A stretch of 64,000 nucleotides of DNA from Gemmatimonadota bacterium (GTDB lineage: Bacteria > Gemmatimonadota > Gemmatimonadetes > Gemmatimonadales > GWC2-71-9), in the NCBI GenBank assembly GCA_025358055.1, contig JANYKV010000114.1, positions 1 through 64,000 of the forward strand, given 5' to 3'. The position numbers were made by a program, and so were the translations under genes. Positions 10,112 through 59,828 of the stretch are shown piece after piece. Under the pieces are notes generated by a model. The model did not search any database. It saw nothing but the letters and a program-made list of their open reading frames with translations, and had not been told where the DNA came from. How positions within the stretch are numbered: the first letter of the stretch is position 1; every line of letters begins with the position of its first letter.

Positions 10112-10144
10112 AAGAGCAAGTAACCGAAGATTGGAGTGCCGTGT

Positions 10145-12199: not shown

Positions 12200-12240
12200 G
12201 GCGGGGGGGCGAGAGGATGACACACCGTGAAAGGGGCAAA

Positions 12241-14163: not shown

Positions 14164-14177
14164 GGAGGTGGTCCGTC

Positions 14178-43413: not shown

Positions 43414-43429
43414 CCACGGGAGCGCCTTG

Positions 43430-45006
43430 ATGAGTCACCGATTGCACCTGGGGCTTCTATGGGTGTGGGTGATCGGCGCGTGCGCTCCGACACCCGATGG
43501 AGCCAGGACCGTGGTGAAGTCTCCGAGCTTCAAAATCACCACGGAGAAGAGCTTCGACGCATCCGGCGTGAAAGCATACGCCGGCTCAGCTCCCGACATA
43601 TATGCCCACATCGACGCGCACCAGGCGGAGCATGTGGCCAACATCCAGCGGTGGCTCCGCCAGCCCTCTATCAGTACGGAAAAGAAGGGCATTCCCGAGA
43701 TGGCGGGCCTCGTGCGTGATGATCTCAAAGCGCTCGGTTTTCAGGAGGCGGCGCTCGTTCCAACGTCGGGACACCCGGGCGTTTGGGGATACTACGACGC
43801 CGGGGCTGCCAAGACCTTGCTCATCTATATGATGTACGATGTCCAGCCCGTCGAGCCGGCGGATTGGCGCTCCCCGCCCTTCGAGGCCGCCGTGGTGGAT
43901 CATGAGTTGGGCAAGGCGATCATCGGCCGTGGCGCCACGAACCAAAAGGGGCCGGAGCGCGCGTTCCTCAATGCCTTGGCCTCGATCATCGCGGTGCGGA
44001 AAAAGCTTCCCGTAAACCTCATGGTGGCCATGGAAGGTGAGGAAGAGCTCGGGTCACCGCACTATCCCGAAATGGTCGACAAGTTCGAAGCGCGGATGAA
44101 GACCGCGAGCGGTGTGTTCTTTCCGTTCCTCAGCCAGAATCCGGATGGCTCGACATCGATGTTCTTGGGCGTCAAAGGGATTCTTTACTTCGAGTTGGAG
44201 GCCAAGGGTGGCGCCTGGGGCGGACCGTCAAAGGCCGAAATCCACAGCTCCTACAAGACGTTGGTGGACGCCCCGGCCTGGCGTCTTACCCAGGCTCTGG
44301 CGAGCCTCACCTCGGCGGATGGGAATTCGATTCAGGTGCCGGGATACTCGGATCCGATTCGCGCTCCGAACGAGGAGGAGCAGAGCCTGGTGAATGGCAT
44401 GATGAAACAATGGCCCGAGGAGGAGACGCAAACCCGCGAACGTATGGGGGTGGCGCGTTGGGTGGATAGCCTCAGCGGGCAGGCGTCGTTACTTCGTCAC
44501 CTCTTCACCACCACGCTCAACATTGACGGAATCTGGAGCGGATATACGCAGCCGGGTGGTAGGAAGACTATTCTGCCCCACCAGTCGACCGCAAAGCTCG
44601 ATTCGCGCCTGGTGCCGGACCAAACCCCTGATAGCGGGCTTGCGCTCATCAAGGCCCACCTCGCCGCCAAAGGATTCGGGGACATCGAGGTGCGCAAACT
44701 CTCCGGCTATCCCCCGGCGCAAACCACCGTCGAAGCGCCGTTCGTCCAAGCCGCGATTGGCGTGTTCAATAATACGGACACACCCCAAGCGTGGCGCCGC
44801 GCTTGGCCGGGAGTGCGCCGTACTATGTGTTCACGCAACGTCTCAAGCTGCCAATGGTGGCTGCGGGCATCGGGCATGGTTCCGGGGCCCACGCACCCAA
44901 TGAGTACATGGTCATCGCGCCGAAGCCGGGCTCGAAGATCGCGGGGCTCGCCGACATCGAGAAGTTCTATGTCGATCTCCTTTACGCGCTGAGCGAATCG
45001 AAGTAG
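43430..45006 (+). pseudogene. M20 family peptidase-like lipoprotein, apparent frameshift near 44790
   Basis: Frame of the 521-aa ORF gives M20 sequence to about ...GVFNNTDTPQAW, then nonsense; the conserved C-terminus (RLAGSAPYYVFTQRLKLPMVAAGIGHGSGAHAPNEYMVIAP) continues in the -1-equivalent frame (ORF 44791..45006). Confidence 0.7.
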
Positions 45007-45038: not shown

Positions 45039-46133
45039 GTGGCAGTGCAGGGTGCAAGACGATTCAAATGGCCGGCCGTTCTCGAGCAGAACATTCTGGT
45101 GCGGCTCGTCGTATACTATCTGGCGCTTGGATTGATTGCCGGGCTGACGTGGTGGCTCGCGCCTCCAGGCCTGCGGGAAAAACTCTCCAGCACCATGGCG
45201 GAGTTGACGAGTTCGAACCTCGCCGACACCTTCGACGCCGTGACAGGGCGCAAGCCCAAGTTCGACTCGGTGGCGCTCGCTTCCCATTCGCCGCCACTCA
45301 CGACCGCCGTCACGGTCGTGAGTGCGTTTTTGCTCGTCCTGCCGGTGGCCTGGGTCTACATGTTCACCCGGCACAAGAAGGGATACCGCCAATCGCTGGT
45401 CCAGAGCTTGATCCTGCTTCCGATCACGGTGGCGACGGTCGTCGTGCTGGTCAAAAACAGTCTGCCCTTGGCGTTCAGCTTGGCGGGCATCGTAGCCGCG
45501 GTGCGGTTCCGCAACACACTGGAGGACAGCAAAGACGCGGTCTTCTTTTTCGCCGTGACCGGCCTGGGGCTTGCGAGCGCCGTGCACATCGACGTTGCCG
45601 TGGTCTGGTCAGTCGTGTTCAATACGGTGGCGCTTACCCTCTGGTACACGAACTTTGGGCGGACTCCGCCTCGGTTGGAAGAGCAGCGCGCGGAGCGCCA
45701 TCTACAAGAGGCGATGTCCATTGCCAATCGGACCAGCCAGTTCGTGGCACGGATCGATAGGGAGGTGCTCGATGACATGGCGCCCGAGCAGCTCGACGCG
45801 CTGGCGGTTCGGGTTCGGCGGAAGCGAGAGCGCTCTACGGAGGAAATGTCGGGCTCCAAGCCTACCAAATTCGACACTCGATTTCTGATCCACTGCAGTG
45901 ATGCCGCCGCCGGCCGACCCATCATCGAATCGGTGATGAGTCGCAACGTCAAGCGTTGGGAGTTCGAACGGCTCGAGCCCCAGGATGATGGGACGGCCAT
46001 CGTGGTGTATCGAATCCGCTACCGCAAGAACGTTCCGCCCCATATCGTCACGCAGGCGTTGGAGCAGGAAGGCGTTCCCTTCGTGGCGGGCGTCGAGGTC
46101 AACCCGATCGGAGCCGACGATGGCGAACCATGA
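45039..46133 (+). CDS. DUF4956 domain membrane protein
   Basis: TM segments followed by FSLAGIVAAVRFRNTLEDSKDAVFFFAVTGLGLASAVH. Confidence 0.8.
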   Translation: MAVQGARRFKWPAVLEQNILVRLVVYYLALGLIAGLTWWLAPPGLREKLSSTMAELTSSNLADTFDAVTGRKPKFDSVALASHSPPLTTAVTVVSAFLLVLPVAWVYMFTRHKKGYRQSLVQSLILLPITVATVVVLVKNSLPLAFSLAGIVAAVRFRNTLEDSKDAVFFFAVTGLGLASAVHIDVAVVWSVVFNTVALTLWYTNFGRTPPRLEEQRAERHLQEAMSIANRTSQFVARIDREVLDDMAPEQLDALAVRVRRKRERSTEEMSGSKPTKFDTRFLIHCSDAAAGRPIIESVMSRNVKRWEFERLEPQDDGTAIVVYRIRYRKNVPPHIVTQALEQEGVPFVAGVEVNPIGADDGEP

Positions 46134-47202
46134 TGCGCCGAGGGCGCACGCACTGTTCGGTACCCTGCTGTTCGCCGCCGGATGCATCCTTGGGGTTGCG
46201 GCGGTGTCGGCCCAGGAGGCCGCCGTCAAGAAAGGTCCCGATCCACTCTTCGCATCGGATACGACGCTCACGTTGAGCCTGACCGCCAATTTTCGCACGC
46301 TGGCCAAGGATCGGGATACCGTGTCTCGGAAATCCTATTCGGCGGTTCTCGCCTATATCGGACCCGACAGTCGTCCGGTGACACTGAACGTGCATCTGGA
46401 GACTCGGGGTCATTACCGATTGAAACGGTCGACCTGCGAGTTCCCCCCGCTTCGTGTGTCGTTCGACAAAACGGAGGTTGCCGGCACTCTATTCGAGCAT
46501 CAGAAGTCTCTGAAGTTGGTGACGCATTGTGACAATTCTTCGTCCAAGGCCGAGCAACTCATTCTGAAAGAGTTCTTGCTGTATCGGGTGTACCATCAGC
46601 TCACGGACCTCGCCTTCTTGGCTCGACTCGTCAAAATGACTTACCAGGATTCCGTCGAGGCGAACGGCAAGCTAGTAAAATTTGGATTCTTCGTGGAAGA
46701 TGATGGGCGTCTCGCCAAACGAAATGGCATGAAGTTGGCAAAGGTGAAGCTGACGCGGTTCGACGACCCGGATATGGACCACAACGAGGGGAACCTGCTC
46801 GGAATGTTTCAGTATTTCATCGGCAACACCGACTGGTCTCTTCCGTTCCTGCACAACATCCGGATTCTCGCGAACGAGACGGGGACAAATTACCCGGTCG
46901 CGTACGATTTCGACTGGTCCGGCGCGGTCGATGCTTCATATGCTCGGCCGGACGCCCGGCTGCCGATTCGGACCGTCCGAGAGCGATTGTACCGGGGGCC
47001 CTGTCTCAAGGAGCAAGACCTCACGGCAACCCTCGCATCCTTCAAAGCGAAAAAGGGCGTCATCTATCAGCTCTATGAGGGGCGACCGGACATCACCGCG
47101 GACACGAAGAAGTCGACTCTGGAATACTTCGATGAGTTTTATCATCAAATCGATGACCCCAAACATGCGCAGGAGGCCTTCCGGGTCGTCTGTCCCCGGT
47201 AA
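46120..47202 (+). CDS. Secreted CotH-kinase-like protein
   Basis: Signal peptide; VTLNVHLETRGHYRLKRSTCEFPPLRVSF; LKEFLLYRVYHQLTDLAFLARLVKM; YFIGNTDWS; overlaps the DUF4956 gene end. Confidence 0.6.
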   Translation: MANHDAPRAHALFGTLLFAAGCILGVAAVSAQEAAVKKGPDPLFASDTTLTLSLTANFRTLAKDRDTVSRKSYSAVLAYIGPDSRPVTLNVHLETRGHYRLKRSTCEFPPLRVSFDKTEVAGTLFEHQKSLKLVTHCDNSSSKAEQLILKEFLLYRVYHQLTDLAFLARLVKMTYQDSVEANGKLVKFGFFVEDDGRLAKRNGMKLAKVKLTRFDDPDMDHNEGNLLGMFQYFIGNTDWSLPFLHNIRILANETGTNYPVAYDFDWSGAVDASYARPDARLPIRTVRERLYRGPCLKEQDLTATLASFKAKKGVIYQLYEGRPDITADTKKSTLEYFDEFYHQIDDPKHAQEAFRVVCPR

Positions 47203-47275: not shown

Positions 47276-49324
47276 GTGAACCCGTGCTCCAATTCGATTT
47301 CCGCCGTATGCGCCGCTATCCTCCTCGTGGCGCATCGCGCTCCGCTCCAAGCGCAAGAGACTCCTTCCGACACGCTGCTCACCATCGAGCACTATCTCGA
47401 TTACGAAACGGTTTCCGAGCCAAGGCTGTCGCCCGATGGAACGCGTATCCTCTTCAGCCGAAACTGGATCAATCGCAAGGCCGATCGGTGGGAGTCCGAT
47501 CTCTGGCTGATGAATGCGGACGGCGCGCACGCCCGATTCCTGATCAAGGGGCACGGCGCGGTCTGGTCCTCCGACGGAACCCGAATTGCGTATCTCGCGG
47601 AGACCGAGAAGGATGGCCCCCAAGTTTTCGTGCGCTGGATGGACGCCGAAGGAGCGACCACCCAAGTCACGCGCGTCACCCAAGACCCCGGAGAGGTGAA
47701 GTGGTCGCCGGATGGTAAGCATCTGGGCTTCAGCATGTTCGTTCCGAGAGACAGTACCTGGACCATCAGCATGCCCCTACCGCCGGAAGGGGCGCAGTGG
47801 ACGCCGACCCCGAGGATTCTCGAACGGCTGCATAACCGCCAGGATGGTCGCGGGTTCAATGCGACCGGCTCCACCCACCTCTTCGTCGTGTCCGCAGACG
47901 GCGGCACTCCGCGCCAGATCACCAGCGGGGATTGGCAAGTCGGCGCCCGATTCGACGGCCAATCCCTTGGGTTAGGCTGGGATTGGATGGCGGACGGCAA
48001 AACCGTCGTTGTGGATGGTCTCATGGTGTCGAACCCCGACCTGAACTATGAGGAGTCAAGGATCTACGCGGTCGACGTGGCGACGGGCGGGATTCGCGCG
48101 CTTTTGTCCTTGCCGGGTAGATGGACCCGTCCCACCGTGTCGCCCGACGGGAAATGGATTGCCTACCTCGGCGTTCCAAAGTTTGAGGGCGCCTATCACG
48201 CCACCGATCTCTGGGTGATGCGGCCGGATGGAAGCGCGGTCACCAAGCTCACGACAACCCTCGACCGCGATGCTGATGAACCGGTATGGTCGCCTGACGC
48301 GAGCGGCGTATACTTCACGGCCGAAGACCAAGGGTCACGCAACGTCCTCTTCGTGTCACTCGGCGGAACGGTTCGGGCTCTCACCACGGGCACCCATGTG
48401 CTCAACCTCGGCTCGGTGGCCCGGAACAAAACCGCGGCCGTCGTCCGCGCCAGCTATACGAAGCCGACCGATCTCGTGCTGGTCAACCTCAGGAAGCCGT
48501 CCCAACTCACGCAGCTCACGCATGTCAATGATGATCTCCTCGCCCACAAGCGGCTCGCGGAGATTGAAGAGCTGTGGTTCCGCTCGGGGGACGTCAAGGT
48601 TCAAGGTTGGATCGTGAAGCCTCCCACGTTCGTGCCGACGCAACGCTATCCGCTCATTCTGGAGATCCACGGTGGTCCGAGCTCGATGTATAGTGTGGCG
48701 TTCGACTATATGTGGCAAAACTTCGCGGCCAACGGGTACGTGGTGCTCTACCTCAATCCACGCGGGAGCACCGGGTATGGATCAGCCTTCGGCAACGCCA
48801 TCTACCGCAAGTTTCCCGGGGTGGACTACGACGATCTGATGGCGGGGGTGGATAGCGTCATCGGGCGCGGGTACGTGGACCCGAAACGGATGTACGTGTC
48901 GGGATGTAGCGGTGGTGGCGCCCTGTCCAGCTGGGTCATTGGCCATACCGATCGCTTTGCGGCGGCCGCGGTCCGCTGTCCGGTGACCAACTGGCTCAGT
49001 TTTGCGGGAACGTCCGACATTCCGCTCTTTGGCCATAGTTGGTTTGCTAAACCGTTTTGGGAAGACCCTGAACCGTGGCTCAAGAATTCGTCGCTGATGT
49101 ACGTCGGAAACGTCAAGACGCCCACATTGCTGATGACCGGTGTGCTGGATCTGCGGACGCCGATGGAGCAAACCGACGAATACTTCGCCGCGCTCAAGCT
49201 CCGCGGGGTACCAGCAGCGGTGATCCGGTTCGAAGGGGAACCGCATGGGACGGATTCGAGGCCCACGAATTTCATGCGGACCCAGTTGTACATGATGAGT
49301 TGGTTTCAGCGGTATACGAAGTGA
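47276..49324 (+). CDS. S9 family secreted peptidase (paralog B)
   Basis: GCSGGGALSSWVIGHTDRF; EIHGGPSSMYSVAFDY; GVLDLRTPMEQTDEYFAALK; GTG start with AGGAG. Confidence 0.87.
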   Translation: MNPCSNSISAVCAAILLVAHRAPLQAQETPSDTLLTIEHYLDYETVSEPRLSPDGTRILFSRNWINRKADRWESDLWLMNADGAHARFLIKGHGAVWSSDGTRIAYLAETEKDGPQVFVRWMDAEGATTQVTRVTQDPGEVKWSPDGKHLGFSMFVPRDSTWTISMPLPPEGAQWTPTPRILERLHNRQDGRGFNATGSTHLFVVSADGGTPRQITSGDWQVGARFDGQSLGLGWDWMADGKTVVVDGLMVSNPDLNYEESRIYAVDVATGGIRALLSLPGRWTRPTVSPDGKWIAYLGVPKFEGAYHATDLWVMRPDGSAVTKLTTTLDRDADEPVWSPDASGVYFTAEDQGSRNVLFVSLGGTVRALTTGTHVLNLGSVARNKTAAVVRASYTKPTDLVLVNLRKPSQLTQLTHVNDDLLAHKRLAEIEELWFRSGDVKVQGWIVKPPTFVPTQRYPLILEIHGGPSSMYSVAFDYMWQNFAANGYVVLYLNPRGSTGYGSAFGNAIYRKFPGVDYDDLMAGVDSVIGRGYVDPKRMYVSGCSGGGALSSWVIGHTDRFAAAAVRCPVTNWLSFAGTSDIPLFGHSWFAKPFWEDPEPWLKNSSLMYVGNVKTPTLLMTGVLDLRTPMEQTDEYFAALKLRGVPAAVIRFEGEPHGTDSRPTNFMRTQLYMMSWFQRYTK

Positions 49325-49503: not shown

Positions 49504-51258
49504 CTACAGCGGCCACTTCACTCGCGCAAACAGACTGCTCGCGTGATATAGGCTCCCCGCGCTGAAAGCGGCCACCGACACGGCCGACGCCACGTTCGCG
49601 AACGAATATCCGATCGCAAGCTCCCCCGCGGCAATCGGCCGATACGACACGGAGGCGTTTATTCGCTGAGTACCACTCGACGATGGACTGTCGAACGTGA
49701 CTCGCTGCTGACCCAGGGCACCCTCCGCGGTGAACGCCCATCCGAGATCGCGGCCCACACCGTAGCGCGCAACCGCTTCCACGAGGTCATACCGCTTGGG
49801 TGCGAAGTATCCATCGTGCAGCGAGTGATCGTACCGAAACGTCCTGCCGGCCACCCCAATGGATGTTTGCCTTCCCAGCTGAAGCCGGAGCGCCCCATTT
49901 CCCGAATGTCTCGAGTTGACCTCGGTGCCACCCTCAATGCTCGTGATGCCAACCCCCCCTGACAGCGTGAGCCGAAGCGGGAGTGCGAGGTCGGCGTCCA
50001 GATCATATGCCGTGTTGTGGATGCCGCGGGCGATTAGGGTCGCGGTCTCATCGAAAGGGCCGGTGGCGACACCAGCGCCGACCCGGAGCCTCGTGGTCAC
50101 TGGTCCGCTCAACCGTGCTGTGCCGACAAACGTGGTGGTGGACGTGTTTGAGGCACCGCCGCTCGACCTCGTGTTGGTTCCCCCACCCTCTAGGCGAAGG
50201 AACCACGAAGGGAACGGGACGTAGGTAAGACCGAACCGCGCGCCGGTCGAATTGGCGTGGAGTGCGTCGAGATCGGCCGTTCGATAGTGTGCGCTCACGA
50301 GTAATCGTGCCCGCCGAAAGGCGGCCACGCGGAGCGTCGCGCCAATCGAAGTCGCGCGATTGTGGTCACTGTCCCAGGTTGTGGTGCCGCTGGGTTCGAA
50401 CGTAGTGGCCAGTTCGGCTCTGACCCACCGCATCTGCTCCAACGCGTCGGCATGACCGGGTTTGGCGCGAAGCGCACGTTGCAGCGCCTCGGCCGCCTCT
50501 TCGGGTCGGCCGGTCCAGCGGAGCACCTGCGCCAGTCCGACCCAGACCTCGGGATCTTCCGGCGCTCGGACAATCATTTTTCGCCAGACCATCTCACTCT
50601 GGCTGAAATCTCCCCGCCATGCGGCGACGAGCGCGACGCCTTTCTCCGCGTCCGGCCAATCCCGGGTGCGCGCGAGCCGAGAGAATTCGCCTTCCGCGTC
50701 ACCCAATCGGTTGGCCCAGGCGAGAGTTCGGGCCCGGGCGAGCAGAGCCTCGCGATCGTTAGGGTACCGGCTGATCCAGCCGGCATACCGACTGAGTGCC
50801 GCATCGAATTCGCCGGCCCATGCAAGCACTTGTGCTGCGCCGAGCGCCGCGTCGCGGTACGTGGAGTCGCGCGAGAGGATGCTATCGTAGATGGCGACGG
50901 CCTCTCGACTACGATTGGCCCACGCCAGCGTCTTCCCCAATGCGATGCGGCCTTCCTCGTCTTTGGGTTCCAAGAACACGTAGTGTCGGAAGAGGGCGAT
51001 TCCGCGGTCGAGCTCTCCATCCCACGCGAACGCGGTGGCGAGTCGATACACCGCGCGAGATGATGCGTTGGAGTCCTGAGCGACGACGCGGCGGTAGGCT
51101 TCCTTCGCCGTGCGGTAGTCCGCTGCGTTCCAGGCCGCGTCTCCTTGGGCCAGGAATCCGCGAATTGAAGCGGCCTCGGTCGGTCTTTGGGCCGAAACCG
51201 TGCCTCCAGTCGCCGCGACCAGCGCCATCAGCAGCGACCCGTAGTGCCTAAGCTGCAC
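49504..51258 (-). CDS. TPR protein with C-terminal outer-membrane beta-barrel (YaiO/PgaA-like)
   Basis: Tandem TPR (NAADYRTAKEAYRRVVAQDSN..., GRPEEAAEALQRALRAKPGHADAL) followed by about 300 aa of alternating amphipathic strands; GTG start at 51258 gives a signal peptide; start uncertain. Confidence 0.7.
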   Translation of the reverse strand: MQLRHYGSLLMALVAATGGTVSAQRPTEAASIRGFLAQGDAAWNAADYRTAKEAYRRVVAQDSNASSRAVYRLATAFAWDGELDRGIALFRHYVFLEPKDEEGRIALGKTLAWANRSREAVAIYDSILSRDSTYRDAALGAAQVLAWAGEFDAALSRYAGWISRYPNDREALLARARTLAWANRLGDAEGEFSRLARTRDWPDAEKGVALVAAWRGDFSQSEMVWRKMIVRAPEDPEVWVGLAQVLRWTGRPEEAAEALQRALRAKPGHADALEQMRWVRAELATTFEPSGTTTWDSDHNRATSIGATLRVAAFRRARLLVSAHYRTADLDALHANSTGARFGLTYVPFPSWFLRLEGGGTNTRSSGGASNTSTTTFVGTARLSGPVTTRLRVGAGVATGPFDETATLIARGIHNTAYDLDADLALPLRLTLSGGVGITSIEGGTEVNSRHSGNGALRLQLGRQTSIGVAGRTFRYDHSLHDGYFAPKRYDLVEAVARYGVGRDLGWAFTAEGALGQQRVTFDSPSSSGTQRINASVSYRPIAAGELAIGYSFANVASAVSVAAFSAGSLYHASSLFARVKWPL

Positions 51259-51291
51259 CAGGTTAAGGAGATGGGTAGGTATATTCCACCG

Positions 51292-54012
51292 ATGATCCGG
51301 TCTCATAGAGCGCCTCTCTACGCACATCTCTTGCCACCTCTCCTGGGGGCATGCCTGGTCATCTCAATGCCACTGGTGGGCCAGAGTCCCCCAAAAACGG
51401 CCTGTGCGCCGCTTTCGCCAACATTGAATGAGAGCCTGGACCGAGCCTGGGAGGCATACCGCGCCAATAATATGACCGAAGCGCAAGCCGCGTTCCAGCA
51501 GGTACTCTCCGCTTGCCCGAAGGTGGTCAGCGCCGCAAACGGCCTAGGATATGTGGCGCTTCGCCACGGTGATCTTCCCTCATCGGAACGCTACTTCGAG
51601 CGCGCTCTGAGCCTCCGTCCCAACGACTATGATGCGATCACCGGCCTCGGAATGGCGTCCTATCGTGCCGGTGATCAAGTCCGCAGCCGAATGACTTTCG
51701 AACGGGCCCTGAAGTTATTCCCGCAGGACTCCGTGACGAAATGGTACTTGGCCCGTCTTCCGGCCTCGCTCGACACCACTCGGTTGGCGCCGGTAAGCCG
51801 CCCGGTGACAACCCAGGTCGCTGCCCGCGTGGCGCAACGCGCGTTCGAGGTTCCCAATGGCCGTGGTGGGTGGCAACCCATGTGGCTCAAGGGGCTCAAC
51901 ATCGGCGCGGCGCTTCCGGGCAAGCATCCCTCGGAATTTCCGCCCGACGACGGGACCTATGAACATTGGTTAGCACTCACGGCCGAAATGGGCGTGAACA
52001 CGCTTCGGGTTTACACCGTTCACCCACCGCACTTCTATCGGGCGCTCGCTCAATGGAACGCCACCCACCCGACCCAAACGCTCTGGCTCATCCACGGCGT
52101 TTGGACGGAACTTCCGCCGGGGCCCCAGGAAGAGCAGTACGACGACCCGTCATGGCTCGCTGAATTCCACGGGGAGATGCACAATGTTGTCAACCTGCTC
52201 CATGGCCACGCGGTCATTCCGGCCCGGCCGGGCCATGCATTCGGGGTGTATCGGGCTGACGTCTCGCGTTGGGTCGTCGCCTATATCATCGGACGTGAGT
52301 GGGAGCCGCATTCGATTGTCGGGTATCAGGCCAATCGACCCGATCGCACGAAGTACGAAGGCAAGTATCTCACCGTGGCGCGAGGGAACGCGGCCGAAGC
52401 TTGGCTCGCCGAGCAGTGTGACTACCTGATTGACTACGAAATGCGGGGGTACAACGCGCAGCACCCCATTGCTTACACGAACTGGCCGACCCTGGATCCA
52501 CTGCATCACCCGACGGAAAGCACTCTCGCCGAGGAGGCGCAGCTTCGCCGCGCGCGGGGAGAGGAGACGCCGGAAGCGGCTCGGGAGTTCGATAACGATG
52601 CCATCGGGCTGGATGCGACGCGCATGGTGCCGACGCCGGCGTTTAAGGCCGGCACCTTCGCGTCGTACCACGCCTATCCGTACTACCCGGATTTCATGGG
52701 GCTCGACCCCGACTACGCGCGGGCGAGTGGGCCGGAGGGTCAAAGCAATTACTTCGGCTATCTGCGCGATCTCGTCCGGTACCACGGCGACATGCCGGTC
52801 GTCATCGCCGAGTATGGGGTTCCATCCTCGCGGGGCATCGCGCACTTCCAACCCCAGGGCTGGAATCACGGGGGGCACTCGGAGGTAGAGCAGGGCGCGG
52901 TCGACGCGCGGCTCACGCGCGAGATCCACGCCGCTGGTGCGGCTGGCGGACTCCTTTTCGCCCTGATGGACGAGTGGTTCAAGAAAAACTGGATCGTGAT
53001 CGACTTCGAGCAGCCGCTGGAGCGGAACCGGCTCTGGCTCAATCCGCTGGACGCGGAACAGAATTATGGGGTCATCGCCATGCGGGCCGGTCCCCGTGAT
53101 TCGGCGCTGGTCATCGACGGCCGGGGTGAGGATTGGGGCACTCGGGGCACCTGGTACCGGGGATCGTTGTCGGCCACGCTCCCGCCGCCGCTTCAGATCA
53201 AGGAATTTCGGGTCGCGAACGACGAGGCCTACGTCTACCTCCGACTTGACGTGGGGGCGATCGATTGGACGAAAGCCCGATACCTCATCGGCATCGACAC
53301 CTACCGGGCCGACCTCGGCGATTTCGTGTTGCCGCGGACTGGGGCAACCTCACCGGTCGGGCTCGAATTCGTGCTCGATCTTACCGGCCCGGTGGGGAGC
53401 CATCTTCTGGTGGATCACCCCTACACCCTGTACCACCCGGCGCCCATCGCCGGCAGCAATCCGCCGACCCAAATGCTCGTTTACCATCGCCCGTTTCGTA
53501 CCGTGGCCAATCGCGACGGCGTCTGGGACACGCTGTGGGTCGAGACCAATCGGCGGAGGATTGGACGCGACGGTACCGTGTTTCCCGCGACCGTGTACGA
53601 TCGCAATCTCCTGCGTTTTGCCCGGCAAGGAGAGAATAGTTTGGCCGATTGGTACGCCGATTCGGCCACGGGAATCATCGAAGTACGGCTTCCCTGGGGC
53701 ATGTTGCATGTGCTCGATCCTTCCAGTCGCTCGGTTCTCTATGGCAGCCAGGCTACGACCCACGATCCGGAAGGAACGGCCACGGAAGGATTCCGCTTCG
53801 TGGTTCAGAGCTACGATCCGGGGAACCCGACTCAGCCAGCCGATTGGCTTCCGAAACAACCGGGCGGGGTTGGGTTCGGTCCGGTCCCCGTGTGGGCCTG
53901 GCCGGTCTGGGAGGAGCCGCGTTGGCACCAGGAAGTGAAGCCGGTGTTCCGCGCGATGCAGGAAACATTTCGGGCGATCAAGGGTCCCGCACGAATCGTG
54001 AATGAACGCTGA
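51292..54012 (+). CDS. Secreted TPR plus glycosidase-like TIM-barrel protein with C-terminal CBM9-like beta-sandwich
   Basis: Signal peptide; TPR (SERYFERALSLRPNDYDAITGLGMASYRAG); LKGLNIGAALPG...NTLRVYTVHPPHFYRAL; IIGREWEP; VVIAEYGVPSS; C-terminal ALVIDGRGEDWGTRGTW. Confidence 0.7.
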   Translation: MIRSHRAPLYAHLLPPLLGACLVISMPLVGQSPPKTACAPLSPTLNESLDRAWEAYRANNMTEAQAAFQQVLSACPKVVSAANGLGYVALRHGDLPSSERYFERALSLRPNDYDAITGLGMASYRAGDQVRSRMTFERALKLFPQDSVTKWYLARLPASLDTTRLAPVSRPVTTQVAARVAQRAFEVPNGRGGWQPMWLKGLNIGAALPGKHPSEFPPDDGTYEHWLALTAEMGVNTLRVYTVHPPHFYRALAQWNATHPTQTLWLIHGVWTELPPGPQEEQYDDPSWLAEFHGEMHNVVNLLHGHAVIPARPGHAFGVYRADVSRWVVAYIIGREWEPHSIVGYQANRPDRTKYEGKYLTVARGNAAEAWLAEQCDYLIDYEMRGYNAQHPIAYTNWPTLDPLHHPTESTLAEEAQLRRARGEETPEAAREFDNDAIGLDATRMVPTPAFKAGTFASYHAYPYYPDFMGLDPDYARASGPEGQSNYFGYLRDLVRYHGDMPVVIAEYGVPSSRGIAHFQPQGWNHGGHSEVEQGAVDARLTREIHAAGAAGGLLFALMDEWFKKNWIVIDFEQPLERNRLWLNPLDAEQNYGVIAMRAGPRDSALVIDGRGEDWGTRGTWYRGSLSATLPPPLQIKEFRVANDEAYVYLRLDVGAIDWTKARYLIGIDTYRADLGDFVLPRTGATSPVGLEFVLDLTGPVGSHLLVDHPYTLYHPAPIAGSNPPTQMLVYHRPFRTVANRDGVWDTLWVETNRRRIGRDGTVFPATVYDRNLLRFARQGENSLADWYADSATGIIEVRLPWGMLHVLDPSSRSVLYGSQATTHDPEGTATEGFRFVVQSYDPGNPTQPADWLPKQPGGVGFGPVPVWAWPVWEEPRWHQEVKPVFRAMQETFRAIKGPARIVNER

Positions 54013-55201
54013 ACTATCCTCGGGGCACTGGGTGGCCCTCGTGTCGAGGTTGGGGGCCATCTCGCACGCCCGGCGCGGCCTGGGCCGAGACCCGGGTGCC
54101 GAGGCACAAATCCGCCGGGAGGTGCAAGCACTCCGAAGCTTCGCCGCGACCTATCGCTTTCCCGATATCTACGCGCTCGCCAGTCGAATCGAGCAGGCCA
54201 ATACCGAGCAATTTCCCCCCCGGGTGGAGGAGTTGGTGCAAATCCTCCGGCAGTTGGTCGGGGGTGTGGACGCCACCAAGACCGCGATCCTCATCGTGGA
54301 GGACAATCCAACCGAACGTGGGCTGTTGGCGGATGCTTTGGCGACTCCGGATCGTGAGATCCTCGTCACCTCGACCGGTGGTGAAGCGCGGAAGGTGCTC
54401 GAGACTCGTCCGGTCGCGCTCGTTGTCCTCAATCTCTCCTTGCCCGACATGGACGGCCGAAACCTCCTCATCCTCATGCGAAATTGGCCCGCCACAACCG
54501 GAACTCCGGTGTTGGTGATGGCGGACTCCACAGGATCCGCAACTCGCGCCGAATGTTTGACCCTTGGCGCGGACGCATTTCTTCCGAAGCCCGTGGATCT
54601 CGATATCGTTCGATCGCTGGTCACCGCCCAGTTGAGGCTCGCGACACCAACGCCGGCGAAATCGCCATCCAGCGCACCCGCGGTCGACCCCTCCCCGGCT
54701 GAACGGGCCATCACTCCGGAACCGATGACCCTACCGGAGATCGTTGCCGAGGAGCTGGCCCTTCCTGAGATCCAGCTTGCCGAGACCCAACCAGGGATGC
54801 CTGCCGCCGCCGCAATGTCAGCGGGGCTCCAGTCGAAGACCATCTTGCTGGTGGAGAATGACCAGCTCACGGCCGAAATCCTGATCCACCGCCTTGCCCG
54901 CGAGGGGTACGAGGTGATCCATCACACGACTGGATCGGCCGTGCTCGAGCGGGCCGCGGAGGAGATCCCCGCGATGGCGATTCTGGAGGTCAAAGTGCCG
55001 GGCATGGACGGATTTGAGCTGCTGACGAGGCTCCGGAGGATCCCGGCGTACGAGTCAATTCCCATTATGCTCCTGACGGGGATGGGTGGGGAGCGGGATG
55101 TTCTCCGTGGTTTTGAAAAGGGTGCGGACGACTACATGGTGAAGCCGTTCTCGCCCCGCGAGCTCATCGCGCGGGTGAACCGGCTTCTCAAGCGACGGTA
55201 G
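54002..55201 (+). CDS. Protein with two receiver (REC) domains, both with substituted phospho-acceptor sites
   Basis: REC1 ILIVEDNPTER...LVVLNLSLPDMDG...FLPKPVD; REC2 ILLVENDQLTAE...MAILEVKVPGMDG...YMVKPFSPRELIARV. Confidence 0.85.
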   Translation: MNAELSSGHWVALVSRLGAISHARRGLGRDPGAEAQIRREVQALRSFAATYRFPDIYALASRIEQANTEQFPPRVEELVQILRQLVGGVDATKTAILIVEDNPTERGLLADALATPDREILVTSTGGEARKVLETRPVALVVLNLSLPDMDGRNLLILMRNWPATTGTPVLVMADSTGSATRAECLTLGADAFLPKPVDLDIVRSLVTAQLRLATPTPAKSPSSAPAVDPSPAERAITPEPMTLPEIVAEELALPEIQLAETQPGMPAAAAMSAGLQSKTILLVENDQLTAEILIHRLAREGYEVIHHTTGSAVLERAAEEIPAMAILEVKVPGMDGFELLTRLRRIPAYESIPIMLLTGMGGERDVLRGFEKGADDYMVKPFSPRELIARVNRLLKRR

Positions 55202-55202
55202 G

Positions 55203-56282
55203 GTGCAAAGCCTTCGTGACTTCATCTCTTCTCTCGGTCGCGCCATCGGGCCGACCATTGTCTCGTTAGCGTGGATCATCGTTCTTCTGATCAGCGTCCT
55301 GATCATGCTTGGCGTCACGGTCCTGATCCTCCGGCGGCGCAACAACGTCAAGCAACGCCGCTGGACGAGGCTGGAGCAAGGATGGGAACCCGCAATTCTG
55401 CAAGTCCTGGTGGGGGCGGAGGATTCGGAATCGCTCTGGCGGAAAGTGGAACCCCGAGACCGCCTGTACTTCGTCAGTTTTCTGCTGCGGTACGCCCAGC
55501 GTCTCGCCGGTGACGAGCGCTCGAAGCTCGACGACCTGGCGGCCCCATTTCTCAAACAGATCGCCGCGCGACTCAAGAGCCGGAACGTCGAGCGGCGGGC
55601 CCGCGCGGTCAAGACCCTCACCATCCTCGGCCTCAGAACCCACGCGCGCGTGGTGGTCGAGGCGCTCGATGATCCTTCACCGTTCGTCGCTATGGTGGCC
55701 GCTCGCTCGCTGGCCAACCGGGAGCACCCCGAATTTGCGATGGAGGTGCTGAAACGCCTCCATCGCTTTGAGCACTGGCGGCCGAGTTACCTCGCCTCGA
55801 TGCTCGCGAGCATCGGCCTCGCGGCCGCCCCCGCGTTTCGGCAAACCCTCGCGGACCCTTTGGTCAGTTCCCGCTCTCGCTCCGTGGCGGCGGACGCCCT
55901 GCTCGCCCTGCATGATTTCACAGCGGTCGCCCCAGCCGCTGACGCTCTGACCACGACGAGAGACCGAAACCTCCTCGTAAGCCTCCTCCGTTTTCTCGCT
56001 GAACTGGGTGGGCCCGAGCAGCTGCACGCGATTCGGCCGCATGCCACCTCCTCGGACCCCGTCGTTCGTTCTCGCGCCATCGCGGCCTTGGGCCGGATCG
56101 GAGACCCCGCCGATCGACCGGTATTGCTCGCGGCCTTCCAAGACCCGTCCCCCTGGGTAGCGATTCGCGCCGCGGAGGCCTTGTGGGAGGCGGGAGATAC
56201 GGCGCTCCTCAAAGAGGTGGCTGACTCCGATCACCCGAGAGCGACGCTCGCTCGCCAGGCCCTGGCCGGAGACATCACGTGA
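55203..56282 (+). CDS. Membrane-anchored HEAT-repeat protein
   Basis: One N-terminal TM (IVSLAWIIVLLISVLIMLGVTVLIL); HEAT repeats (VRSRAIAALGRIGDPADRPVLLAAFQDPSPWVAIRAAEALWEAGD). Confidence 0.8.
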   Translation: MQSLRDFISSLGRAIGPTIVSLAWIIVLLISVLIMLGVTVLILRRRNNVKQRRWTRLEQGWEPAILQVLVGAEDSESLWRKVEPRDRLYFVSFLLRYAQRLAGDERSKLDDLAAPFLKQIAARLKSRNVERRARAVKTLTILGLRTHARVVVEALDDPSPFVAMVAARSLANREHPEFAMEVLKRLHRFEHWRPSYLASMLASIGLAAAPAFRQTLADPLVSSRSRSVAADALLALHDFTAVAPAADALTTTRDRNLLVSLLRFLAELGGPEQLHAIRPHATSSDPVVRSRAIAALGRIGDPADRPVLLAAFQDPSPWVAIRAAEALWEAGDTALLKEVADSDHPRATLARQALAGDIT

Positions 56283-57697
56283 TCTGGGCGTTTGTCCGAC
56301 TGCTCCTCGGTTTCTTCAATGGCCTCGTCCTGGCCTATTTTGTCGCGCTCAACGGAGTGTACCTCATCACGAGTCTCCGGGCCTATCTCTCGCTCCGCCG
56401 CTACAGCAGCCGGCTCAAGGCGCTCGATATCCAGCCGTACCTCAAGGCCGAAGGCGCCCCGCCCATGACGCTGCTCGCGCCGGCTTATAACGAGGAGCCC
56501 ACGTGTGTGCAGTCGACGAAATCACTGCTCACCCTGAACTACGCCGACTATGAGATTTTGGTGATCAACGATGGGTCGAAGGACAAGACGCTGGAACGGA
56601 TGAAAGAAGCTTTTGATCTGGCGCCCGCCGCCCGGCTGGCCGTGGGCGATCTCGCCACTAAGAAGGTTCGCGAAGTCTACCAAAGCCGCGTCCATCACAA
56701 TTTGTGGGTGATCGATAAGGAAAACGGAGGGAAGGCGGACACACTGAATGCCGGGATCAACTACGCACGAACACCATTCTTCTGCGCCATGGACGCGGAC
56801 AGCCTCCTCGAGCCCGAGGCGCTGATCCGGGTAGTCCGGCCGTTCCTCGAAGATGAAACGACCATTGCGGTTGGCGGGATCATCCGGATCGTCAACGACT
56901 GTCGCGTGGAATCCGGGCAAGTGACGGATGTCCGAATGCCTCGCAATCTGCTGGCGAGTCTGCAAGTGTTGGAGTACCTTCGCGCCTTCCTCAGTGGCCG
57001 GATGGGATGGGACGCGCTGGATGCCACACTGGTCATCTCGGGCGCCTTTGGCGTCTTTCGCCGCGATCTGGTGATTCAGGTGGGCGGCTATGCCACGGAC
57101 ACGGTCGGCGAAGATATGGAGCTTGTCGTCCGCATGCACCGCCACTGCCGGGAGAATGCCATACCGTACCGGATCGCATTCGTCCCCGACCCGGTTGCCT
57201 GGACCGAGTGTCCGGAGTCCGTGAAAGTGCTGTCCCGCCAACGGGACCGCTGGCAGCGCGGTCTCATCGAAACCCTGCTCCGGCATCGCAAGATGCTGTT
57301 GAATCCGCGCTATGGTCGGGTCGGGATGGTGGCGTTTCCGTATTTCTTCTTTCTCGAGATGTGCGGTCCGATCATCGAGTTTCTGGGCTACATCTCTTTT
57401 GCGGTGGCCGTCATACTCGGAGTCGCGTCCAAGCAGTACATTATCGCCTTCCTCCTGGTTGCGTTCGTATTCGGGACGGTGTTGTCCGTTTCCGCGGTGG
57501 CTCTCGAAGAGCTAGGCTTTCGGCGCTATCTTCGCTTGGGCGACCTGTTCCGCCTGTTGGGCCTGAGCGTGGTTGAGAACTTCGGTTACCGGCAACTCTC
57601 AACCTTTTGGCGGATGAAGGGCACCGTGTCCGCCATGCGGGGCCAGAAGGGATGGGGTCGCATGGAGCGACGCGGTTTCGCAGTGCCCAAGACCTGA
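56279..57697 (+). CDS. Processive family 2 glycosyltransferase (IcaA/PgaC/BcsA-like)
   Basis: LAPAYNEE, VINDGSKD, DADS, GED, QRDRWQRG motifs with N- and C-terminal TM segments; GTGA overlap with the HEAT gene. Confidence 0.87.
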   Translation: MIWAFVRLLLGFFNGLVLAYFVALNGVYLITSLRAYLSLRRYSSRLKALDIQPYLKAEGAPPMTLLAPAYNEEPTCVQSTKSLLTLNYADYEILVINDGSKDKTLERMKEAFDLAPAARLAVGDLATKKVREVYQSRVHHNLWVIDKENGGKADTLNAGINYARTPFFCAMDADSLLEPEALIRVVRPFLEDETTIAVGGIIRIVNDCRVESGQVTDVRMPRNLLASLQVLEYLRAFLSGRMGWDALDATLVISGAFGVFRRDLVIQVGGYATDTVGEDMELVVRMHRHCRENAIPYRIAFVPDPVAWTECPESVKVLSRQRDRWQRGLIETLLRHRKMLLNPRYGRVGMVAFPYFFFLEMCGPIIEFLGYISFAVAVILGVASKQYIIAFLLVAFVFGTVLSVSAVALEELGFRRYLRLGDLFRLLGLSVVENFGYRQLSTFWRMKGTVSAMRGQKGWGRMERRGFAVPKT

Positions 57698-57737
57698 ATT
57701 GCAGCAGGACGATCGTTTCACCTTTGGAGGTCCTTCC

Positions 57738-59828
57738 ATGTTCTCAAATCTGCGCAGGCTGCTCCGTATCTCCGCCGCAACACTTGTCCTCCCTGGTGCC
57801 CTCGTGGCGCAGGAGGTACCGTCCGACTCCCTCCTCACGGTGGGCCACTATCTGGACCTCGAATCGGTGGGTGAGCCCAAGCTCTCCCCCGATGGGGCCC
57901 GAGTGGTATATACCAGGCGCTGGGCCAATAAAATGGATGACACGTGGGAGACCGCCCTGTGGATCACCAACGCGGATGGAACCCGGAATCACTTCCTTAC
58001 CAAGGGCTCCAATGCCGTGTGGTCGCCGGACGGATCCCGAATTGCGTACATCGCTCCTGGGGACCCCAAAGGCACCCAGATCTTTGTCCGCTGGATGGAT
58101 TCGGAAGGGGCGACCTCCCAGGTCACTCGACTCACCGATGCCCCAAGTGATCTCAAATGGTCGCCGGACGGCAAGTGGCTCGGATTCAGCGGGTTCGTCG
58201 CAAAGCCCTCGGTCTGGAAAATCGACCTTCCCTCCGCGCCCGAAGGCGCCAAGTGGACCAAGGCCCCTCGCTATGTGGATCGACTCCACTATCGGCAGGA
58301 TCGTCGCGGGTACACGGACCCTGGATTCGTCCACCTATTCACCATTCCCGCGGACGGCGGAACTCCGCGCGACGTGACGCCCGGGGACTGGAGTGTCGGA
58401 GGACGCTTTTATGGATTGGCCGGTGCGGTCGGCTGGGCTTGGACACCGGATGGACGATCTATCGTGGTCGACGGCCTGAAGGAAGCGGATGCCGATCTGC
58501 GCTACCGCGAATCGAATCTCTACGTCATTGACCTCGCCACCGGGGCCGAGCGCCGCCTCACGGGAACCAAGGGGTTTTGGGGCAGTCCCTCCGTCTCCCC
58601 CGATGGCCAGGTGGTAGCCTTCTCGGGCTTCGCATGGACGACCGATACGTATCACGCGTCCGACCTGTACACCATCCGACTGGATGGCACCGGGATGAAA
58701 AGCCTGTCGGCAGGGTTCGATCGAAGCCCGGGCGAACTATCTTGGGCCCCCGACGGCAGTGGCGTGTACTTCACGAGCGAAGATCGGGGAGCGATGAACC
58801 TCAACTTCGCTTCCGTCGGCGGCGGAGTTCGGGGCATCACGACGGGAGTTCACATGTTGGCGGGAGTTTCCCTCGGGGCTACTGGAATCGGGACTGCCGT
58901 CCGCACCACGTTTACGCAGCCGACGAACATCGTGCGGTTTGCGCTGCCCCGCCGCGCCGGGGAAACCGTGTCGACGTTTACTTCGTTGACCCATGTCAAT
59001 GACGATGTTCTCGCCGGCAAACGGGTGGCCGATGCGGAGGAAATCTGGTATCGCTCGACCGGCGGGGCGCGGGTTCAAGGATGGATTGTGAAACCACCGT
59101 CCTTCGACCCAGCCAAGAAGTATCCCCTGATTCTCGAAATTCATGGCGGTCCCCATGGGATGTACAATGTGGGGTTCAGCTATATGTGGCAAAACTTCGC
59201 GGCGAACGGCTACGTGGTGCTCTATACGAATCCCCGAGGGAGCACCGGGTACGGATCCGTCTTCGGCAACGCTATCAATCGCGCCTATCCAAGCGTGGAT
59301 TACGATGACTTGATGGCCGGTGTGGATTCGGTCATTGGGCGGGGATACATCGATAGCAAGAACATGTTCGTGTCCGGCTGCAGCGGCGGTGGGGTCCTTT
59401 CGAGCTGGGTCATCGGCCATACCAATCGTTTCGCGGCCGCGGCGGTGCGGTGTCCGGTGATTGATTGGTTGAGTTTCTCCGGCGAAACCGACATTCCGTT
59501 TTTCCTGAAGGGGTTTTTCGAGAAGCCATTTTGGGAAGACCCACAGCCGTGGCTTAAGCAGTCGTCACTGATGTACGTTGGGAACGTCACCACGCCGACG
59601 CTGCTCATGACCGGGGTGCTCGATCAACGAACCCCTATGCCGCAGACGGAGGAATACTTCGCGGCCCTCAAGATGCGCGGCGTGCCCACCGCGATCCTGC
59701 GGTTTGAGGAAGAATGGCATGGCACGTCCTCCAAGCCGTCCAACTTTATGCGCACTCAACTGTACATGATGAGTTGGTTCAAGAAGTATGGCGGGATGGC
59801 TCGGCCCGCCGCGGGGTCCGAACCGTAG
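57738..59828 (+). CDS. S9 family secreted peptidase (paralog C)
   Basis: GCSGGGVLSSWVIGHTNRF; EIHGGPHGMYNVGFSY; GVLDQRTPMPQTEEYFAALK; start taken at MFSNLRRLLRIS. Confidence 0.87.
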   Translation: MFSNLRRLLRISAATLVLPGALVAQEVPSDSLLTVGHYLDLESVGEPKLSPDGARVVYTRRWANKMDDTWETALWITNADGTRNHFLTKGSNAVWSPDGSRIAYIAPGDPKGTQIFVRWMDSEGATSQVTRLTDAPSDLKWSPDGKWLGFSGFVAKPSVWKIDLPSAPEGAKWTKAPRYVDRLHYRQDRRGYTDPGFVHLFTIPADGGTPRDVTPGDWSVGGRFYGLAGAVGWAWTPDGRSIVVDGLKEADADLRYRESNLYVIDLATGAERRLTGTKGFWGSPSVSPDGQVVAFSGFAWTTDTYHASDLYTIRLDGTGMKSLSAGFDRSPGELSWAPDGSGVYFTSEDRGAMNLNFASVGGGVRGITTGVHMLAGVSLGATGIGTAVRTTFTQPTNIVRFALPRRAGETVSTFTSLTHVNDDVLAGKRVADAEEIWYRSTGGARVQGWIVKPPSFDPAKKYPLILEIHGGPHGMYNVGFSYMWQNFAANGYVVLYTNPRGSTGYGSVFGNAINRAYPSVDYDDLMAGVDSVIGRGYIDSKNMFVSGCSGGGVLSSWVIGHTNRFAAAAVRCPVIDWLSFSGETDIPFFLKGFFEKPFWEDPQPWLKQSSLMYVGNVTTPTLLMTGVLDQRTPMPQTEEYFAALKMRGVPTAILRFEEEWHGTSSKPSNFMRTQLYMMSWFKKYGGMARPAAGSEP

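Follow-up and report, generated by a model that had tools for sequence, protein, structure and literature searches.

Five genes at positions 49504-57697 of the window, as we term the whole 64,000-nt stretch of DNA that was analysed, most likely build, trim and export a slimy surface sugar polymer. The genes, together with putative catalytic residues of the glycosidase (TGH residue numbering refers to the modelled 731-aa region), are as follows:

OMP, 49504..51327, minus strand: TPR-scaffolded 16-stranded outer-membrane export porin with a BcsC/PelB/PgaA-like fold, as predicted with AlphaFold and Foldseek
TGH, 51292..54012, plus strand: exported protein with TPRs, a predicted (beta/alpha)8 clan GH-A-type glycosidase and a C-terminal beta domain (Pfam, model, Foldseek)
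TGH E161-W-E163, 52297..52305, plus strand: end of strand beta4; E161 is the putative acid/base
TGH E332, 52810..52812, plus strand: strand beta7; putative nucleophile
REC, 54002..55201, plus strand: degenerate Hpt-REC-REC protein without an output domain (Pfam Response_reg, twice)
HEAT, 55203..56282, plus strand: one N-terminal TM helix, then HEAT repeats (HEAT_2); putative synthase adaptor
GT2, 56279..57697, plus strand: processive membrane glycosyltransferase, a candidate polysaccharide synthase (Pfam GT2, motifs)

The coordinates, strands and junctions are those claimed in an earlier note on this DNA: on the plus strand, TGH and REC overlap by 11 nt, REC and HEAT are separated by a 1-nt gap, and HEAT and GT2 overlap by 4 nt. 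The domain calls of that note (TPR, double REC, HEAT, GT2) are likewise borne out by Pfam, which matches TPRs in OMP and TGH, two Response_reg domains in REC, HEAT_2 in HEAT and GT2 families in GT2. Read as their longest ORFs, the divergent genes of OMP and TGH share 51187-51327, and at least one of the two true starts must therefore be internal; the longest TGH ORF begins at 51187, and the start with a signal peptide likely lies at 51271 or 51292. For OMP, the start given is provisional, being that of the longest ORF.

Neighbouring genes were also considered as system parts. A DUF4956 gene and its secreted neighbour (45039-47202, upstream) are unsupported in this role, as no relatives occur near other loci, and the flanking S9 peptidases were rejected because paralogues of theirs also occur at other places in the window. 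In Planococcus, a DUF4956-CotH arrangement adjoins TGH-HEAT-GT2; the window's DUF4956 neighbour is not a CotH protein by Pfam or BLASTP.

Conservation, fusions and distribution

The five genes are a conserved system, and co-occurrence places their arrangement far beyond chance. The neighbourhood search that the earlier note had proposed finds the families together well beyond the source genome: HEAT lies directly upstream of GT2 in 79 of 82 related GT2 loci, with the 4-nt overlap in 60/83, a REC gene lies upstream of GT2 in 53 of 59 distinct loci, and a porin is found within 2.5 kb of TGH in 38/39. In a scan of the phylum (298 genomes), GT2 was present in 34 of 35 TGH-positive genomes vs 50 of 263 others (Fisher p 1.7e-20); the sole TGH-positive genome without GT2 at threshold (G170) may be an incomplete draft. 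TGH and GT2 lie within 10 kb of each other in 17 of the 34 genomes having both, and genomes with an unlinked TGH carry REC-HEAT-GT2 elsewhere. In Geothrix, the genes stand in the canonical order TGH-OMP-REC-HEAT-GT2. REC-HEAT-GT2 often stands alone, with no TGH or porin nearby, as in a second copy in the source genome, and TGH and porin are thus not obligate neighbours. On the GT2 tree, 11 adjacency changes were counted with short loci set aside (15 before).

Natural fusions join several of the parts, namely HEAT with GT2 (locus L082), TGH with the porin (L066 and L067, the barrel of the latter matching BCSC_C) and TGH with a polysaccharide deacetylase (L086). Relatives were found in Acidobacteriota, Deinococcota, Bacillota, Proteobacteria, Bacteroidota and haloarchaea, and a separate plasmid collection held a GT2 relative in 14 records and three TGH matches (Deinococcus, Paenibacillus, Planococcus), all directly upstream of HEAT-GT2. 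No porin occurs among the examined monoderm and archaeal examples with HEAT-GT2 (Paenibacillus, Planococcus, haloarchaea), and the porin of Mesorhizobium and Legionella is of the YaiO type, that of the Mesorhizobium relative matching the YaiO barrel domain PF19413.

Predicted architecture of the five proteins

Structure prediction, a check also suggested in the earlier note, agrees with its reading of the two exported proteins. The OMP model (AlphaFold, pLDDT 93.4) consists of 15 TPR helices followed by 16 strands, or seven TPRs and a 16-stranded barrel, and thus predicts the pairing of TPR domain and outer-membrane pore that is characteristic of synthase-dependent exopolysaccharide (EPS) systems. 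Foldseek matches include BcsC (9b8a/6tzk), PelB (9h80, TMt 0.68) and PgaA (4y25, TMt 0.76). Like BcsC and PelB, its top matches among export systems, OMP has a TPR superhelix continuous with the barrel, but it carries only seven TPRs and is ~12% identical to them. It scores 20 bits against the NCBIfam BcsC family (cut-off 858) and 53 against PgaA (cut-off 367), and has no PF19413 match at E 1e-3.

The TIM region of TGH (model pLDDT 89.7) has no Pfam family, and searching the PDB with a TGH sequence profile yielded no usable match to any chain. The TPR and TIM-barrel description in the earlier note was sound as far as it went; the model shows an additional C-terminal beta-rich domain. The best Foldseek matches are GH157 complexes with laminaribiose or laminaritriose (~12% identity, TM-score < 0.5), and GH17 laminarinase and the fungal GH72 glucanosyltransferase Gel4 match too; since GH5 mannosidase, GH2 glucuronidases and GH2 beta-galactosidases come close behind at such low identity, the fold names a clan and not a substrate. 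E161-W-E163 and E332, the latter on a strand of residues 328-333, are invariant in 26 TGH relatives; Deinococcus and one Paenibacillus paralogue, the latter with D163, retain E161 as well. A modelled (beta/alpha)8 barrel with invariant putative catalytic glutamates at beta4 (E161/E163) and beta7 (E332) places TGH in clan GH-A. Glutamates after beta4 and on beta7 are shared with GH157 (LaGH157, 9g5g), to which TGH is about 12% identical; TPRs and a C-terminal domain of its own set TGH apart. With its signal, predicted fold and invariant glutamates, TGH has the architecture of a periplasmic polysaccharide-modifying enzyme.

For GT2, the earlier note's assignment as a processive synthase holds: the motifs D98, D172/D174, E278-D279 and Q321-R-x-R-W325, the full set expected of a processive synthase, are invariant in 31 relatives, and together with Pfam they point to the inner-membrane processive synthase of synthase-dependent EPS systems. 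The nearest characterised family is PgaC/IcaA (NCBIfam, 141 bits vs a cut-off of 422); against E. coli proteins, GT2 scores 99.8 bits with PgaC (26% identity), 48.9 with BcsA and 44.3 with YaiP (24% identity over part of the length), and against the NCBIfam CelA family 47.7 bits (cut-off 699). HEAT has an Arg/Lys-rich stretch, predicted to be cytoplasmic, after its N-terminal TM helix.

REC has the two receivers that the earlier note described and, at its N-terminus, a further domain, Hpt-like but degenerate, in which the His is replaced by Q. By alignment, both receivers of the window copy lack the phospho-Asp, having N and E instead, so that the label of pseudo-receiver suits this protein; as a system-defining feature it was rejected, since most REC relatives keep the Asp and degenerate receivers are found in this copy and a few others. 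The phospho-accepting His and Asp of an Hpt-REC phosphorelay protein, kept as H and D in several relatives, are absent here, and with these relay residues lost the window REC is probably a scaffold, either fixed in state or independent of phosphorylation. The regulator slot itself varies, holding a single REC, Hpt-REC-REC or REC with GGDEF, and in a minority of cases REC is missing. Because GGDEF occupies the slot in L080 and L082, some lineages may still use c-di-GMP, and strict c-di-GMP independence of the system is not claimed.

Relation to known systems and proposed mechanism

Synthase-dependent EPS systems are defined by a synthase, a regulatory subunit, periplasmic enzymes and a TPR-porin (PMC7112194). 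The locus shares with Bcs, Pga, Alg and Pel (PMC7112194) a processive inner-membrane GT2, a periplasmic glycosidase and a TPR scaffold fused to a 16-stranded outer-membrane porin, all in one locus, but its glycosidase has no Pfam family, its porin is divergently transcribed, and BcsB is missing. Neither PilZ nor PgaD, nor any other known c-di-GMP receptor or co-polymerase, is found by Pfam and NCBIfam among the five proteins; HEAT and REC are present instead, and REC-HEAT may functionally replace the c-di-GMP/PilZ or PgaD-type co-polymerase. The E. coli yaiO-yaiX-yaiP-yaiS cluster also has a YaiO-type porin beside a GT2, along with a putative deacetylase, but no HEAT, REC or TGH gene; identity with YaiO was rejected on the missing PF19413 match and the partial YaiP similarity, and identity with Bcs cellulose systems on the CelA and BcsC scores and the lack of a BcsB match. 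Nor, as the earlier note had surmised, does the locus match a characterised EPS system: the Pga and Bcs family scores fall below their cut-offs, and a search of the open full-text literature turned up no account of the HEAT-GT2-porin combination.

We consider it probable that the locus is a synthase-dependent exopolysaccharide secretion system with a HEAT adaptor, REC control, TGH trimming and OMP exit. Its export class, which the earlier note had proposed as a Pga/Bcs/Alg-like system built from different parts, is well supported by architecture, motifs, model folds, linkage and co-occurrence, fusions and phyletic pattern; physical contacts, the direction of control and the identity of the polymer we infer as follows. 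GT2 would polymerise a nucleotide sugar and pass the chain through the inner membrane. HEAT, anchored by its single membrane helix, would bind the synthase from the cytoplasm and be indispensable to it as an adaptor or co-polymerase, and the output-less REC would signal via HEAT to GT2, switching or tuning synthesis in the role of PilZ/c-di-GMP or PgaD. On the periplasmic side, TGH would dock via its own TPRs onto the TPR scaffold of the porin and trim or remodel the chain, which would then exit via the 16-stranded OMP barrel.

The polymer might instead be read from the glycosidase, as a beta-glucan (e.g. beta-1,3-linked) with TGH as an endo-beta-1,3-glucanase or transglycosylase. The GH157, laminarinase and Gel4 matches favour this reading, which we find doubtful, given the low identity and TM-scores, the nearly equal GH5 and GH2 matches, and a GT2 closer to PgaC than to the cellulose synthase tested. 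That same closeness to PgaC suggests a divergent Pga system, in which GT2 would make poly-beta-1,6-GlcNAc (PNAG) and TGH and OMP would stand in for PgaB and PgaA, respectively. The PgaA-like porin fold fits, the L086 fusion of glycosidase and deacetylase recalls PgaB, and in Halosolutus glmS and a nucleotidyltransferase follow GT2. However, the PgaC and PgaA scores lie far under the curated cut-offs, TGH and PgaB are unrelated in sequence, a deacetylase domain occurs in only one of 26 TGH relatives scanned, PgaD is absent, and the E. coli pgaABCD operon has no HEAT or REC; Pga identity was rejected, and a divergent PNAG system seems unlikely.

Two further readings dissociate the parts. Variable or sometimes missing REC, and degenerate receivers in the window, would suit a REC-HEAT signalling unit that merely shares an operon with the synthase, but the 4-nt HEAT-GT2 coupling, the natural fusion and the persistence of the pair in archaea and monoderms make this improbable. 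Least credible is a GT2 producing a glycolipid or short surface-glycosylation glycan, with HEAT, REC, TGH and OMP serving other functions: non-processive GT2s exist, and REC-HEAT-GT2 also occurs away from porin and TGH, but the processive motifs, up to the final QRxRW, do not vary, OMP is a predicted BcsC/PelB/PgaA-type TPR porin, and the parts are linked to one another by fusions and co-occurrence.

Beyond the secretion system itself, we tentatively suggest, with slightly less than even confidence, that REC-HEAT-GT2 is an ancient cross-domain synthase (bacteria and haloarchaea), set post-translationally by two-component phosphorelays via the HEAT adaptor rather than by c-di-GMP, and joined repeatedly by a new GH-A glycosidase family and, among diderms, by a TPR porin. 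A 2020 survey recognised five synthase-dependent exopolysaccharides (PMC7112194), and the locus points to another widely spread system beyond these, present in phyla with a little-studied matrix (Gemmatimonadota, Holophagaceae), in Deinococcus and in Bacillota, and represented in haloarchaea by its inner-membrane core. TGH would found a glycosidase family of its own, equipped with TPRs for docking, and, if HEAT is the co-polymerase, two-component signals could act directly on polysaccharide synthesis. The natural HEAT-GT2 and TGH-porin fusions make the order of assembly testable, and cultured members exist in Geothrix, Deinococcus radiophilus and Mesorhizobium ciceri.

Gene layout and surroundings

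Re-reading of the ORFs from the sequence reproduced the coordinates and junctions of five genes that the earlier note had read as an exopolysaccharide (EPS) synthesis and export locus. Pfam assigned TPRs to the minus-strand gene and to the N-terminal part of the plus-strand gene beside it; the next three genes gave, in order, a pair of receivers, HEAT repeats and hits to GT2 families:

49504-51327, minus strand: OMP, TPR plus outer-membrane porin
51187-54012, plus strand: TGH, TPR plus predicted glycosidase
54002-55201, plus strand: REC, receiver-domain gene
55203-56282, plus strand: HEAT, one-TM HEAT-repeat protein
56279-57697, plus strand: GT2, putative processive polysaccharide synthase

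The longest forms of the divergent OMP and TGH genes share 51187-51327, so at least one start in this pair must be internal. Three close paralogues of S9 (Dpp5-like) peptidases surround the locus (41344-43413, 47276-49324 and 57699-59828), with weaker paralogues at 10136-16283; the EPS genes possibly interrupted a tandem expansion. The C-terminal portion of an M20 peptidase ORF (43427-44992) appears non-coding, possibly reflecting a frameshift near 44750. At 45039-47202, a DUF4956 membrane protein precedes a secreted protein without a Pfam match; among the loci compared, such a pair was found elsewhere only in Planococcus (L202), where DUF4956-CotH lies upstream of its own TGH-HEAT-GT2.

Linkage and distribution

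Judging by its relatives, the window is a contig from a Gemmatimonadota draft genome. TGH occurs in nine of 41 genomes (the window's own, which is one of the nine, and near relatives), and a scan of 84,980 species, at one genome per species, yielded 63 loci in Gemmatimonadota, Acidobacteriota (Geothrix isolates among them), one Lysobacter isolate, and one MAG each of Spirochaetes, Nitrospirae and Cloacimonadota. In Geothrix and its kin the order is TGH-OMP-REC-HEAT-GT2. Among 20 genomes searched, mostly picked because GT2 did not adjoin TGH, 16 carried GT2, several on contigs other than that of TGH, and HEAT and REC nearly always stood in front. In a sample of 298 genomes of the window's phylum, TGH was present in 35 and a GT2 orthologue (at least 250 bits) in 84, with both in 34 of the 35 TGH genomes and the two genes at most 10 kb apart on one contig in 17. 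Although the Fisher test (p 1.7e-20) ignores relatedness, the GT2 tree shows at least 11 changes in the adjacency state, and the association thus recurs. With all loci taken together, HEAT lies directly upstream of GT2 in 79/82, the exceptions being a HEAT-GT2 fusion, a HEAT gene on the opposite strand, and one Cloacimonadota locus; a 4-nt HEAT/GT2 overlap recurs in 60/83, REC is upstream in 53 of 59 GT2 loci, and TGH and porin lie within 2.5 kb in 38/39. The window's genome holds a second REC-HEAT-GT2 copy (G000:C145:132533-133906; L121, L190), with no TGH or porin nearby. In family members without TGH (L122-L134), the chromosomal surroundings of this triad are conserved, which suggests that this was its ancestral site.

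Beyond the window's phylum, GT2 was found in 13 of 185 sampled Gammaproteobacteria, mostly with HEAT directly upstream. Plasmid records held REC-YaiO-HEAT-GT2 (Mesorhizobium), REC-TPR-HEAT-GT2 (Erythrobacter and Devosia), YaiO-HEAT-GT2 (Legionella), HEAT-GT2 (Bacteroides) and, in haloarchaea, REC-HEAT-GT2 with no porin. A separate protein search of the same collection with TGH gave three matches (Deinococcus, Paenibacillus and Planococcus). Each lies immediately upstream of HEAT-GT2, and at the two from Bacillota no porin was found. Such a distribution would be expected if GT2-HEAT were a core at the cytoplasmic membrane, with TGH working outside it and the porin needed only where there is an outer membrane.

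Protein models and conserved residues

The invariant residues of GT2 in an alignment of relatives (D98, D172/D174, E278-D279 and Q321-R-x-R-W325) correspond to the processive GT2 set. Its closest NCBIfam model is PgaC/IcaA (141 bits, cut-off 422), and its E. coli matches are PgaC (99.8 bits), BcsA (48.9) and YaiP (44.3). On a Halosolutus plasmid (L191, 5938-10544), a sugar-phosphate nucleotidyltransferase and glmS follow GT2, a hint that the archaeal polymer may be of GlcNAc type.

Beyond its TPRs, TGH matched no Pfam family, and a sequence-profile search of the PDB with this region gave no usable match. The model (pLDDT 89.7, pTM 0.92) combines a (beta/alpha)8 barrel with a beta-rich C-terminal domain; the top Foldseek matches were GH157 structures in complex with laminaribiose and laminaritriose, followed by GH5, GH2, GH17 and GH72. 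By predicted fold TGH is a clan GH-A member, and these matches leave the choice of substrate wide. Three glutamates are invariant in 26 relatives: E161 and E163, which follow beta4, and E332, which lies on beta7 (numbering of the modelled 731-aa region). Since one Paenibacillus paralogue keeps E161 but has Asp at 163, E161 is the better acid/base candidate. A second Paenibacillus copy (L203 10595-13696) lacks E161 and the Planococcus protein (L202 1733-3802) both putative catalytic glutamates; these TGHs, beside HEAT-GT2, are probably non-catalytic. In Candidatus Tenebribacter (Cloacimonadota; L086 1131-4334), a TGH barrel and a polysaccharide deacetylase domain form one protein, the same pairing as in PgaB.

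The OMP model (38-row alignment, pLDDT 93.4) comprises 15 TPR helices, then 16 strands, and its polysaccharide-export matches in Foldseek were BcsC (9b8a, 9b8h, 6tzk), PelB (9h80, TMt 0.68) and PgaA (4y25, TMt 0.76). Glycosidase and porin are one polypeptide at L066 and L067, the barrel of the latter clearing the BCSC_C cut-off. PgaB binds to the TPR scaffold of PgaA, which modulates PgaB activity (PMC9384988), a precedent for the docking of TGH on OMP that we propose.

Regulation and relation to known systems

The N-terminus of the window's REC is Hpt-like and degenerate (His to Gln), and its two receivers carry Asn and Glu at the phosphosite. Relatives such as those at L037, L043, L062 and L088 retain the His and mostly the Asp, the Holophagaceae protein has one intact receiver, and L080 and L082 carry GGDEF in this slot, L080 also MarR. 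Judging by these relatives, the slot is a signalling input, usually phosphorylatable and sometimes tied to c-di-GMP, which is apparently frozen in the window's copy. HEAT repeats are scaffolds for protein binding. Since they bind proteins and the scanned REC proteins show no obvious output domain other than those GGDEF and MarR domains, the simplest reading would be that REC acts on HEAT and HEAT on GT2.

PMC7112194 names five polymers made by synthase-dependent EPS systems and sets out four defining features: the synthase itself, its c-di-GMP regulatory subunit, enzymes in the periplasm and a porin with TPRs. The locus has three of these four features (synthase, TPR-porin and, by architecture, a periplasmic enzyme), whereas their c-di-GMP regulatory subunit was not found in it. 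The open literature searched, with subscription journals outside its scope, held no description of HEAT together with such a synthase. The tests made place the locus outside the Pga, Bcs and Pel families. The EPS synthesis and export inference is nonetheless upheld, for a system broader than was visible from the window, and the genes and models support the proposal that the locus works like Pga, Bcs and Pel.
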